From: Synechococcus sp. WH 8020
Lineage (GTDB): Bacteria > Cyanobacteriota > Cyanobacteriia > PCC-6307 > Cyanobiaceae
Direction of reading: 5' to 3'
NCBI RefSeq assembly: GCF_001040845.1
Contig: NZ_CP011941.1
Location: forward strand, 2,362,890-2,426,889
DNA: 64,000 nt
The notes below the pieces were generated by a model that was not told the origin of the DNA, did not search any database, and saw only the letters and a program-made list of their open reading frames with translations. The first letter of the stretch is position 1. Each line of letters starts with the position of its first letter. The position numbers and the translations under genes are program-made. Positions 24,425-30,195 of this stretch are shown here, one piece after another.

Positions 24425-24985
24425 ATGGTCCCGCTTCCCGCGCCTGAGCCCTCCAAGTTGTTGGAGACCCTCGAGATCATGGATGCGCGCAAGATTCGTT
24501 TCGAGCGCAATCGCATCCTGTTGCCAATGGGGGTGGAGGGAACGTTTGGGATCATTCGCCACCCAGGCGCCTCACTGGCGGTTCCCATCACCTCTGACGG
24601 CCAGGTTGTGATTTTGCGTCAATACCGTTTTGCGGTGCAGGCACGTCTCCTTGAGTTCCCTGCGGGCACCCTCGAAGAGGGTGAAGATCCCCTGGAATCA
24701 ATGCAACGAGAGCTTGGGGAAGAAGCTGGATACAGCGCTGCCCGTTGGGATTCGCTTGGCCCGATGTTGCCTTGTCCTGGATATTCCGACGAGGTGATTC
24801 ATTGCTTTTTGGCGCGGGACCTCAGCCGTTTGGAGCATCCACCCACTGGCGATGACGATGAGGATCTTGAGGTGATCCTGATGAATCCGTCGGAATTGGA
24901 TGCCCATCTGGCATCCGGTGATGAATGGCTGGATGGCAAGACCGTCACCGCCTGGTTCCGCGCCAAGCAACTGTTGGGTCTCTGA
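24425..24985 (+). CDS. Nudix hydrolase, ADP-ribose pyrophosphatase-like
   Basis: A 186-residue protein with a complete Nudix box: G at the start of GTLEEGE, then RELGEEAGY (Gx5Ex7REUxEExGU). The flanking sequence PGYSDEVIHCFLA resembles the NudF/ADP-ribose pyrophosphatase branch, which hydrolyses ADP-ribose or related sugar nucleotides. I use ATG 24425. A TTG at 24404 is also open. Its TGA overlaps the ATG of the photolyase gene by one base. Confidence 0.87.
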   Translation: MVPLPAPEPSKLLETLEIMDARKIRFERNRILLPMGVEGTFGIIRHPGASLAVPITSDGQVVILRQYRFAVQARLLEFPAGTLEEGEDPLESMQRELGEEAGYSAARWDSLGPMLPCPGYSDEVIHCFLARDLSRLEHPPTGDDDEDLEVILMNPSELDAHLASGDEWLDGKTVTAWFRAKQLLGL

Positions 24986-26463
24986 TGACGGCGTCTCGCG
25001 TTTTGTTTTGGCATCGCCGCGACCTGCGCTTGGCCGACAATCTCGGTTTGCAGGCGGCAGCGGAGATCAGCCCTGCGGTGACGGGCGTGTATGTGCTTGA
25101 TCCAGCGCTGATTCACCCGCCTGAGTCGTTGCCACCGATGGCTCCGGCCCGGCTTTGGTTCCTGGTGGAAAGCCTGCGTGAGCTTCAGCAGCGCTGGCGT
25201 GATGTGGGGAGTCGTTTGCTGGTGGTGGCTGGCGATCCGGTGCAGCTGCTGCCGCGTTTGGCGTCGTTACTGGAGGCGCCTGCGGTGGTCTGGAGCCGGG
25301 ATGTGGAGCCCTATGCAAGGGAACGCGACCGTCAGGTGGCCAAAGCACTGCAAGCGGATGGTCGCAAGGTGTTGGTGGATTGGGATCAGCTGCTGCTGGC
25401 ACCGGATTTGATCAAAACCGGAGGTGGTGATCCGTATCGCGTGTTTGGTCCTTTCCTGCGCAATTGGCGCGGGCAGGTGGAGCGCCGTGGGCCAAGCACG
25501 GTGGATGCTCCCAGGGCCTTGATCGATCTGGAGGCCGACATGCTGGAAGCCATTCGTGGTGGTGAGAGTGCGCTAGGCCGTTTGTGCAATGAGGGGCAGC
25601 GGCAGCTGGAGCAGTTGCAGGTTGAGCACGGTTTTCGTGGCACGGATCTGTGCCCCAGTCGTCCAGGAGAGGCCGCGGCGGCTGAGCAGTTAGCCACGTT
25701 TGCTGACGGGGCTTTGTTGGCCTATGAACCCGATCGCAATTTTCCGGGGATGCCAGGAACGTCGTATCTCAGTGCGGGATTAAGTGTGGGTACGGTCAGT
25801 CCTCGTCAGGCCTGGTGCGCTGCCCAAGGAGTCAAGGAGATCGCCCGTAGTGATGAGCAACGGCAGGCGATCACGGTGTGGGAACAGGAACTCTGCTGGC
25901 GTGAGTTTTACCAGCAGGCCTTGTTCCATTTCCCTGAACTGGCGGATGGTCCTTATCGCGAGCAGTGGCGGCGTTTCCCTTGGGAAAACAACAGCAACTG
26001 GTTTGACGCTTGGAGGGAAGGACAAACGGGGATGCCGATCATCGATGCGGCGATGCGACAGCTCAACCAAAGCGGCTGGATGCATAACCGTTGCCGCATG
26101 ATCGTGGCCTCATTCCTTGTGAAGGATTTGATCTGTGATTGGCGTTGGGGCGAGCGCGCCTTCATGGAGTTGGAGGTGGATGGAGATTTGGCTGCCAACA
26201 ATGGTGGCTGGCAATGGAGCGCCAGCAGTGGCATGGATCCAAAGCCTTTGCGGATTTTTAACCCGGCCACTCAGGCGTCGAAATTTGATGCCGAGGGTGA
26301 GTACATCCGTGAATGGGTTCCTGAATTGCGGCACGTCAACACCAAGGATTTGATCAGTGGTGAGATCGCTGCTTTGGAGCGCAGGGGCTATCCGGAGCAG
26401 CTGGTGAATCACAAAGTGCAGCAGGCCAAGTTCAAAGCGCTTTACGCCACCATTCGCTCTTGA
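24985..26463 (+). CDS. phrB: Class I deoxyribodipyrimidine photolyase
   Basis: A 492-residue FAD enzyme that repairs UV cyclobutane dimers with light. The N-terminal antenna domain begins SRVLFWHRRDLRLADN. The C-terminal FAD domain has ELCWREFYQQ, the WMHNRCRMIVASFLVKDL signature and a DGDLAANNGGWQW segment followed by RIFNP. Overall it is of the bacterial class I type with deazaflavin or folate antenna. Its start overlaps the Nudix stop. The last 22 bases overlap the convergent aminotransferase gene. A second, split photolyase-like locus lies 2.4 kb downstream. Confidence 0.95.
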   Translation: MTASRVLFWHRRDLRLADNLGLQAAAEISPAVTGVYVLDPALIHPPESLPPMAPARLWFLVESLRELQQRWRDVGSRLLVVAGDPVQLLPRLASLLEAPAVVWSRDVEPYARERDRQVAKALQADGRKVLVDWDQLLLAPDLIKTGGGDPYRVFGPFLRNWRGQVERRGPSTVDAPRALIDLEADMLEAIRGGESALGRLCNEGQRQLEQLQVEHGFRGTDLCPSRPGEAAAAEQLATFADGALLAYEPDRNFPGMPGTSYLSAGLSVGTVSPRQAWCAAQGVKEIARSDEQRQAITVWEQELCWREFYQQALFHFPELADGPYREQWRRFPWENNSNWFDAWREGQTGMPIIDAAMRQLNQSGWMHNRCRMIVASFLVKDLICDWRWGERAFMELEVDGDLAANNGGWQWSASSGMDPKPLRIFNPATQASKFDAEGEYIREWVPELRHVNTKDLISGEIAALERRGYPEQLVNHKVQQAKFKALYATIRS

Positions 26464-28284: not shown

Positions 28285-28355
28285 GGCATCGAGCAATGGT
28301 GGATTCCGCCATCCTGAGTCGGTAGAGAATTACCTGTCAAAGCAGGATCGAGTTG

Positions 28356-28859
28356 ATGGTGCGGGTGCTGACATTGGTGGTCATGGCAGGACTAGTGAGC
28401 GCCTGTGTCCAGAAGAAAGCAACCACCTGGAAAGTCTTTCCCCTGCAGCGCAATACGCCCCACGATGGACTTGCTGTCGTCAGTCAACCCGATGGCTATG
28501 GGATTCATCTCTATTTGGAAACCGATACCAGCGATCCAGCTGTCTGTTCACCGCGCTGGCTTCCTGACCCGGCGCGATTGTTTAACGGCAACGGAAGTGC
28601 TCCGTTTAGTTCTGGATTGGCACCCCGTGCCGAGTTTCTTGCAGCGGTGAAGCGCAGAGACGTTCGAAAGACTCTGAAGCAGGAGCTCGAGGCGCTGTGC
28701 AAACTCCGAGCTCCTCAGGCGCGCTGGCAATGGCTGGAACCACCGTTGAAGGCATCAGATCTGATGCCCGTGAGTCTTCCGGCCTTGGAATACCCAGACC
28801 TTCTGACCGATCCTGTTGAGGAAAAACAGCGCGAGGACAAGCTTTTAAAGGAGGACTAA
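28356..28859 (+). CDS. Small predicted lipoprotein of unknown function
   Basis: A 167-residue protein not recognised as a known family. The N terminus (MVRVLTLVVMAGLVSACVQKK) is a lipoprotein signal with the lipobox cysteine at about residue 17. The mature part is about 150 residues with no repeats and ends in a charged tail (EEKQREDKLLKED). I use ATG 28356, since the frame is also open from TTG 28353. Its stop overlaps that of the convergent photolyase-like small gene. Confidence 0.75.
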   Translation: MVRVLTLVVMAGLVSACVQKKATTWKVFPLQRNTPHDGLAVVSQPDGYGIHLYLETDTSDPAVCSPRWLPDPARLFNGNGSAPFSSGLAPRAEFLAAVKRRDVRKTLKQELEALCKLRAPQARWQWLEPPLKASDLMPVSLPALEYPDLLTDPVEEKQREDKLLKED

Positions 28860-29284
28860 AACCTTTCCCAGACCACAGGTTCCGCGTCTCGCCAGTAGCG
28901 ACTAAAGCGACCCAGCCGGGGTGGTTTGGGTAACTCCACAAAGGGATCCGGGTCGAGCATCCAGAGAGGAAGCTCCCGATCAATGGCTGCAGCAATGCGT
29001 TGGAGGCGGGGATCCACCATGGTGCTGGTGATCACAGCGTCGGCTCCGTGGCGTTGGGCGAAACGCAGCACCTCATGTGCCACGTCACCTCGGCGCAGGG
29101 TGAGCGGCAGGTTCAAAGCGGATTCGTACAAAAAACCGATGCGTTTACGGCTGATGGACTGGTCTTGAATCCAGGCGTCGTCGAAGACGAATAGTCCTGG
29201 TGTGTTTGGGTAGTCCTGAAGAGCGGGGTTGGCTGGTCCCAGGGCTTCCTCATGCACCCAGAGGATTGGTTTGCGGGGGTCCAT
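28856..29284 (-). CDS. Stand-alone photolyase N-terminal (antenna-type) domain protein
   Basis: A 142-residue protein that aligns by eye only with the N-terminal alpha/beta domain of photolyases. It has PILWVHEEALGPANPAL at the start, GLFVFDDAW, then KRIGFLYESA, LTLRRGD and a GADAVITSTMVDPR segment, in the order found in full photolyases. The FAD domain is absent. The ATG at 29284 overlaps the stop of the upstream FAD-domain gene (ATGA), so the two are almost certainly co-translated. Together they make a photolyase-like pair with domain order reversed. The function is inferred, not known. Confidence 0.8.
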   Translation of the reverse strand: MDPRKPILWVHEEALGPANPALQDYPNTPGLFVFDDAWIQDQSISRKRIGFLYESALNLPLTLRRGDVAHEVLRFAQRHGADAVITSTMVDPRLQRIAAAIDRELPLWMLDPDPFVELPKPPRLGRFSRYWRDAEPVVWERF

Positions 29285-30195
29285 CAAAATCGCTGGGTCC
29301 TGGGCCGTGAGCTGGAGCGGGATGAGCGACGAGCGCTTCCCTCACGGATGGCTGGCTGAAGCTTGAACAGCTGTTGCTCCAACTGCTCGTAACTGCGATC
29401 AAAGGGGCAGGATTCGTTGCTCGGACAGTCCTGGCAATACCGCCCGTTGCTGTAACGCTCCAGGTTTTGGCGATTGAAGACATAGGGCTTGTGGCTGAAG
29501 CTGCTGGCCACCCACTGCCAGCTCAGGTGGTTGCTGGCGGGGTCGCCATCCAGCAGGTGCTCGAGGAACCAGTCAGCCCCTGCACGCCAGTGCACCCGTC
29601 TCCAGTGCACGAGGTAGGCCGCCATCCACATCCGCGCGTGGTTATGCAGCCATCCCTGAGTCACCAATTCCTTTCTGAAACCGTCCATGCAGGCCAGGTT
29701 TGTTCGTCCCTCCCGGATGTCATTGGGGAGACCCTGCTGATACTCACCGGCGGCATGGCCTGTTTTGTGATCTTCCTGATCGTCATGAATGCGATCGCCG
29801 AGATCAAGCCACATCCGCTGCCAGAAATCACGCCATCCCAGTTCGTTGATCAGTTTTCCGCCGTCATCCCTTCCTTGGTTGTTCTGTTTTAGCTGTGAGA
29901 AGACGGCATCTCGCACCTCCGCAAGCGTGAGAATTCCGTGGCGGATGTAGGGCGAGAGGCGTGTGACAGAACCGTTGAGGTGGTTGCGACTGCGGCCATA
30001 GCGCTTGGCATCCATCGCCCTGAGCTGCCGTTCAGCAGCGGATCGACCGCCTTCGATTGGGCTCAGCTCTCCCAATGCGGTTGGAAACTCTTGCGATAGC
30101 AGAGAATTCAGCGCTGTGCGCTCGGGAAGATCTCGGGGCAGATCTGTGGATTCGCTCGGCCAACTGAGCGGCGCAGCGTGCGGCAGCCTGGACAC
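29284..30195 (-). CDS. Short photolyase/cryptochrome-like FAD-binding protein
   Basis: A 303-residue protein that contains only the FAD-binding half of a photolyase. Motifs are NGSVTRLSPYIRHG, ELGWRDFWQRMW, WLHNHARMWMAAYLVHW (182-198) and DGDPASNHLSWQWVASSFS (217-234). These parallel the full photolyase in this window. There is no N-terminal antenna domain. That domain is encoded by the next, overlapping gene. The C terminus has Cys at 254, 257 and 263 (RYCQDCPSNESC), which could bind a metal or cluster, and then a Ser/Arg-rich tail. It may act as a light sensor or a repair enzyme. Confidence 0.85.
   Translation of the reverse strand: MSRLPHAAPLSWPSESTDLPRDLPERTALNSLLSQEFPTALGELSPIEGGRSAAERQLRAMDAKRYGRSRNHLNGSVTRLSPYIRHGILTLAEVRDAVFSQLKQNNQGRDDGGKLINELGWRDFWQRMWLDLGDRIHDDQEDHKTGHAAGEYQQGLPNDIREGRTNLACMDGFRKELVTQGWLHNHARMWMAAYLVHWRRVHWRAGADWFLEHLLDGDPASNHLSWQWVASSFSHKPYVFNRQNLERYSNGRYCQDCPSNESCPFDRSYEQLEQQLFKLQPAIREGSARRSSRSSSRPRTQRF

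Follow-up and report, generated by a model that had tools for sequence, protein, structure and literature searches.

The phr4/phr5 gene pair of Synechococcus sp. WH 8020: a probable two-subunit photolyase with the FAD half encoded first

In the stretch of DNA from Synechococcus sp. WH 8020 that was analysed here (64,000 nucleotides, hereafter the window), the two domains of a photolyase are encoded by two separate genes on the minus strand, and the gene for the FAD-binding, catalytic half is translated before that for the antenna half. An ordinary photolyase with the normal domain order is encoded nearby on the other strand. The features to which we refer are the following:

29284..30195, minus strand: FAD/catalytic half, phr4-type, 303 amino acids, GTG start (Pfam FAD_binding_7, PF03441, E 6.9e-22)
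28856..29284, minus strand: antenna half, phr5-type, 142 amino acids, ATG start, with a TTG at 29287 as a possible alternative (PF00875)
29284..29287, minus strand: junction of the two genes, in which the A of the stop codon TGA is the A of the antenna-half ATG (read from the sequence)
29689..29691, minus strand: codon of Cys169, one of four invariant cysteines (alignment of 132 FAD halves)
29407..29436, minus strand: codons of Cys254, Cys257 and Cys263, putative Fe-S ligands (invariant in 132/132; Fe-S assignment from Haney et al.)
29629..29643, minus strand: codons of Asn185 and Met189, residues of the CPD-photolyase type (Asn in 132/132; Met in 124/132, Leu in 8/132)
24925..26463, plus strand: ordinary class I photolyase (phr3-like), 512 amino acids, normal domain order (PF00875, then PF03441)

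The original prediction, which was made from the DNA letters, had placed a detached FAD half and a detached antenna half at 28856-30195, and both open reading frames are indeed found there with matching domains. For the FAD half, the nearest sequences in the PDB are class I photolyases; its gene starts with GTG in the window and with ATG at the same place in relatives such as L032. The antenna half matches DNA_photolyase (PF00875) with 24.2 bits and an E value of 3.5e-5, just below the curated cut-off of 26.6, and neither an NCBIfam search nor phmmer against the PDB sequences returned a photolyase for it. This weak match is backed by a profile comparison and by structural matches: The profile of the antenna-half family aligns with the class I photolyase of the window (hhalign probability 90, E 1.5e-6), and with the AlphaFold model of the antenna half (pLDDT 87.1, pTM 0.77) the top Foldseek matches are antenna domains of photolyases, with E values from 8e-6. 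The class I photolyase of the window itself scores 640.6 bits against the 8-HDF-type model of NCBIfam, the cut-off of which is 884.6. The 3' end of the antenna gene overlaps by 4 bases with that of a small convergent plus-strand open reading frame (28353-28859), for which Pfam and NCBIfam searches gave no match.

The two genes meet at GATTTTGATGGAC, which reads TGATG, with an overlap of 1 nt, if the antenna half starts at the ATG, and TTGA, with an overlap of 4 nt, if it starts at the TTG. This is what stands in place of the ATGA overlap that had been claimed for the locus; junctions of the ATGA type do exist in the relatives L038, L041, L062, L070 and L075. According to the coordinates, the frame offset from the FAD half to the antenna half is 2 of 3 in the window, so that joining the two frames would take a -1 shift rather than a +1 shift.

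The core of this arrangement is already known: The gene pair is phr4/phr5 as described by Haney et al. 2022 (PMC9426592), and the statement in the original prediction that no coupled antenna subunit was known does not hold. That paper names the reversed domain order, suggests heterodimerisation and reports a fused homologue, phr6; the cysteines of Phr4 of Synechococcus RS9916 are numbered C169, C254, C257 and C263 and assigned to an Fe-S cluster. According to the same source, survival after UV-C irradiation was 20-30 times lower in phr2, phr3 and phr4 mutants, and disruption of phr4 was without measurable effect after UV-B. Expression of phr4/phr5 in E. coli raised survival after UV-C, with no significant difference between light and dark; thus, photorepair by the pair was not shown in that experiment. 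The authors predict a (6-4) photolyase on the grounds of the Fe-S cysteines and the phenotype after UV-C. Whether a frameshift joins the reading frames into a single protein or two proteins are made is a question that they do not decide, and they stress the conserved spacing of the genes. The open reading frames are described there as separated by seven G-C pairs, whereas those of the window overlap by 1 nt and the junctions vary among the 32 split loci studied here; a different start codon might have been used in that description (PMC9426592). A literature search on Phr5 photolyase in Synechococcus returned Haney et al. only, and separate searches for a detached antenna gave nothing relevant. 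What our work adds is evidence on the question of one or two proteins, the finding of unlinked pairs, and the CPD-type residues of the FAD half.

The antenna gene was detected in 54 of the 151 genomes of the window's family. The FAD half is present in 52 of these 54 (E <= 8.8e-80), and in the remaining two, G047 and G138, the antenna gene lies at a contig edge. Sixty family loci were fetched, and the 51 with both halves were used in the counts; left out were two loci with the antenna at a contig edge (L083, L084) and seven of a divergent Phr7-like form (L085-L091). In all 51, both halves lie on the same strand and the FAD half comes first, so that the reversed order proposed for the window is general in these loci. 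They comprise 19 fused loci, in which a single open frame covers both halves, and 32 split ones. A chance arrangement or a pseudogene was considered and is ruled out, because neither frame is interrupted and both are conserved in the 51 loci.

The same pairing is seen in the phylum. In a sample of 244 genomes (thresholds of E <= 1e-50 for the FAD half and E <= 1e-6 for the antenna), 48 genomes have the FAD half and 47 the antenna; these 47 all have both, and the antenna was never found alone. The sole genome with a FAD half but no antenna call, G176, has one frame of 451 aa, which includes an additional part at the C-terminus. This part aligns weakly with the antenna profile (hhalign probability 23), too weakly for us to call it a homologue. 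Outside the family, both halves are present in 38 genomes: They are linked in 22, far apart on one contig in 9 (0.48-4.9 Mb), and on different contigs in 7. The 22 linked pairs are always encoded on the same strand with the FAD half first, and the gap between the aligned parts ranges from 25 to 1900 nt. A check of the gene order in relatives had been proposed along with the original prediction; it found the pair co-occurring across genomes, the opposite of the outcome that was to speak against a partnership.

The pair also extends beyond the cyanobacteria. We inspected the best 80 of at least 582 relatives of the FAD half in named genomes, some of which are metagenome bins and some of which, such as Calothrix NIES-3974, are also part of the phylum sample. 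These best 80 are mostly cyanobacterial; among them are six loci that are Chloroflexota by their titles (L174, L210, L215, L234, L242, L250), two from Bryobacteraceae (L177, L233), and one from a bin named Tatlockia (L230). The antenna gene follows downstream on the same strand in 49 of the 80 loci, again with the FAD half first. For the 31 others, a search at the genome level located the antenna outside the fetched stretch in every case, so that 80 of 80 genomes have an antenna gene; "outside" also covers cases in which the contig stops close to the FAD gene (e. g. L174, L198 and L212) and does not always mean far away, since in at least two genomes (L232, L247) the antenna is by coordinates only about 4-8 kb downstream. 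The assembly of Mastigocoleus testarum (L212, G389) contains two antenna genes that score equally. On plasmids, the fused form occurs in Deinococcus psychrotolerans (a 457-aa CDS, FAD half first) and the split form in Deinococcus sp. QL22 (separate genes that share 4 nt), and on two further Deinococcus plasmids both matches lie under features with an identical product name. Plasmid pPP1 of Persicobacter psychrovividus (L254) carries an unannotated single open reading frame whose FAD half is of the inverted type and whose C-terminal part does not match the antenna profile; in the Persicobacter plasmid frames, which contain these two parts, an antenna match at E <= 1 was absent. The search for the antenna in phages gave no match, and among viral contigs it gave 120 pattern matches, none of which was a relative according to tblastn.

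This distribution bears on the question whether the cell makes one chain or two. According to an alternative raised in PMC9426592, a programmed ribosomal frameshift where phr4 meets phr5 would result in one Phr6-like chain. Such a mechanism would fit the natural fused form in 19 of the 51 loci, the overlap of the frames in 26 of the 32 split loci (they adjoin in the rest), and the conserved spacing stressed in that paper. However, the frame offset among the 32 split loci is 2 in 23 cases, 0 in 6 and 1 in 3, so that 23 loci would need a -1 shift, 3 a +1 shift, and 6 the readthrough of a stop codon. There is thus no conserved frameshift, and a conserved +1 shift is excluded as a general mechanism. 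Moreover, no shift can join halves that are encoded 0.48-4.9 Mb apart, as in nine genomes, or on different contigs, as in seven, and at some junctions (L037, L050, L076) an SD-like AGGAG precedes the second start. We therefore regard frameshifting as a very improbable explanation. Two partner polypeptides rather than one frameshifted chain are favoured by the varying frames, the unlinked genes and the presence of the antenna in 80 of 80 genomes of the named loci.

How the split and the fused forms arose is a separate matter. A quickly built tree with 68 FAD halves requires at least five changes between the two forms, two of which are forced by starred branches; the Deinococcus sequences have long branches in this tree, and their placement is unsure. 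The tree gives no direction, neither from split to fused nor from fused to split. Of the idea that the gene had been "cut and permuted", the reversed order stands, and a cut is one possible history among others.

The co-occurrence of the two genes in linked, unlinked and fused form makes a partnership of their products likely, as had been proposed, and docking of the two as a heterodimer would be in keeping with it. For modelling, seven in-frame pairs were tethered by reading the stop codon as Gln. In the AlphaFold model of the tethered L236 pair (440 residues, mean pLDDT 84.6, pTM 0.84), the pLDDT is below 50 in the linker (residues 270-301) only. Since a pTM of 0.84 would otherwise be unusual, the two domains of the tethered model are probably not floating freely. 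Judged by pLDDT and pTM, the co-folding suggested with the original prediction, run here in tethered form, thus gave no hint of floating domains. VIA alignments with the tethered model span residues 1-273 only, i. e. the FAD half; here, the top matches tie at Z scores of 16.5-17.5, several Fe-S (6-4) photolyases being among them, and the class I photolyase 1dnp reaches 16.8. The Foldseek list for the FAD half is headed by class I CPD photolyases.

Which lesion the enzyme repairs can be approached from the residues of the FAD half. We aligned 132 FAD halves, i. e. that of the window, those of the 51 family loci and the 80 best of at least 582 named relatives, a composition that makes the set a non-random sample. 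Asn185 is present in 132/132 and Glu118 in 131/132, and at position 189 there are 124 Met and 8 Leu. Trp121, Trp203, Trp226, Trp228, Asn222 and the four cysteines (C169, C254, C257 and C263) are invariant. At the invariant sites other than the cysteines the class I photolyase of the window has the same residue, and N185, M189, E118, W121 and W228 align with it. For the outermost tryptophan of the class I triad (W306 in E. coli numbering), no clear equivalent is seen in the FAD half (30195-29284); the other two are invariant.

For PhrB, it has been reported that (6-4) repair depends on His366 and that the H366N variant is without repair, and Asn and Met are given as the CPD counterparts at positions 366 and 370, the latter being Leu370 in PhrB (PMC4619345). 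The spacing of four residues between N185 and M189 fits PhrB 366/370, and from this spacing and the reported CPD counterparts we infer that the sites are equivalent. Since Asn rather than His occupies the site of PhrB His366 in 132/132 sequences, the cyclobutane pyrimidine dimer (CPD) appears a likelier lesion than the (6-4) photoproduct of the published prediction. If the partnership is real and the enzyme is nevertheless a (6-4) photolyase, as PMC9426592 predicts, then the invariance of the four putative Fe-S cysteines, the tie of several Fe-S (6-4) photolyases at the top of the structural alignments, the Leu shared with PhrB at the second site in 8/132, and the reported effect of phr4 loss after UV-C but not UV-B would find a ready explanation. 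The required His would, however, be replaced by the CPD-type Asn in every sequence and the next site would be occupied by Met in 124 of 132; class I CPD photolyases lead both the Foldseek and the sequence lists, and the related 'short' Fe-S class is described as consisting of CPD enzymes (PMC9649867). We thus consider (6-4) repair to be unlikely, and CPD repair is our direct prediction against the sole experimental paper on the pair (PMC9426592).

The role of the antenna half depends on its chromophore. In the genome of Synechococcus sp. WH 8020, profile searches gave no match to cofH and for cofG a background score only (32.4 bits, cut-off 213.35, which three controls exceeded). Because of these two results, 8-HDF made by the known route is unlikely in this strain. 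Of 61 family genomes, 6 have a cofG-like gene, which at 190-206 bits (best 205.8) stays below the threshold of 213.35; the antenna gene is present in each of the six. A strong cofG match is missing from most of the 61. In PMC9426592 it is assumed by analogy that Phr3, the class I enzyme of marine Synechococcus, binds 8-HDF. The chromophore of the antenna half might be a folate, a lumazine or a flavin, or there might be none. The small protein could also act as a structural lid or a regulator, e. g. as a nucleotide-binding protein similar to universal stress proteins, and only stabilise the FAD half without harvesting light. This possibility is rather unlikely: Its fold does resemble that of the universal stress proteins, with a Z score of up to 10.7 and a Usp match in 2 of 15 family members compared to Pfam, and no genes for 8-HDF synthesis were found in its own genome; but photolyase antenna domains outrank the stress proteins in VIA alignments (Z 12.6 for 3zxs and 12.2 for 1iqr and 4dja), PF00875 is matched by 8 of the 15 members, and folate, lumazine or flavin could serve as the chromophore.

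Taken together, we think it likely that the products of the two genes are subunits of a single photolyase, probably one that repairs CPDs, with the antenna docked as a separate chain, and the interpretation given in the original prediction is partly supported. The FAD-half protein would bind FAD and the damaged DNA and perform the repair chemistry, and its four cysteines probably hold a putative Fe-S cluster. Through coupling of the stop and start codons, the antenna protein would be translated next from the same mRNA, dock on the FAD half as a separate chain and shield the flavin; if it bears a chromophore, it would also pass light energy to the flavin. The repaired lesion would most likely be the cyclobutane dimer. 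Counting against this explanation are the light/dark result in E. coli and the UV-B result reported in PMC9426592, as well as genome G359, in which the pair is present and the cysteines of the set are missing.

Several known systems are similar to the pair, and each differs from it in a specific way. The class I photolyases (phr3 of the window; PDB 1owl, 1dnp, 1iqr) have the same two domains and the same residues at the lesion site, but they consist of one chain with the antenna first and lack the cysteine set. The Fe-S bacterial (6-4) photolyases (PhrB, 4dja; CryB, 3zxs) share the four cysteines and are structurally alike in both halves; here, however, Asn is found at the His366 site and the order of the domains is opposite. 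Phr4, Phr5 and Phr6 of marine Synechococcus and Cyanobium (PMC9426592) are the same pair with the same order, cysteine numbers and fused homologue; our analysis departs from that description in the unlinked gene pairs and in residues that point to CPD rather than (6-4) repair. In the tree of the same paper, NewPHL/Phr7 (Emmerich et al. 2020) is the nearest relative of Phr4/Phr6. The seven divergent Prochlorococcus-like loci L085-L091 are single open reading frames of 378-405 codons from stop to stop, in which a FAD half is combined with a C-terminal domain; unlike Phr4, these Phr7-like forms are without the cysteine set, and the antenna-family profile did not match their C-terminal domain (hhalign probability 0.3).

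A further comparison is with SPL ('short photolyase-like', Xu et al. 2021), which is described as a FAD half only, with an Fe-S cluster and of the CPD type (PMC9649867, PMC9178010, PMC9498864). SPL is said to lack the N-terminal domain and to be a possible ancestor, and SePhrC of Synechococcus elongatus is an example (PMC9649867, PMC9178010). A FAD-half-only protein with a putative Fe-S cluster and residues of the CPD type is also what phr4 encodes; what sets the phr4-type proteins apart from the description is that a separate antenna gene is nearly always present in the same genome. The loci studied here do not fit a system devoid of any antenna: The antenna gene adjoins in the window and is present in the genomes of 80 of 80 named loci. 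SPL and the phr4-type FAD halves may be one family, and if so, the short class is not antenna-less but has its antenna in a separate gene. We give an even chance to the broader idea that the widespread Fe-S 'short' class, with members in the cyanobacteria, the Chloroflexota, the Acidobacteriota and the Deinococcota as well as in at least one gammaproteobacterial bin, is a two-subunit and probably CPD-repairing enzyme that receives its antenna in trans from a separate gene; the antenna-first and the FAD-first chains would then be alternative fusions. If this is true, the lack of an antenna domain falls as an argument for the short class as an ancestor. Moreover, a detachable antenna, if this is what the protein is, would permit experiments on energy transfer and on the shielding of the flavin in which the antenna protein is added or taken away; the single-chain enzymes offer no such possibility.
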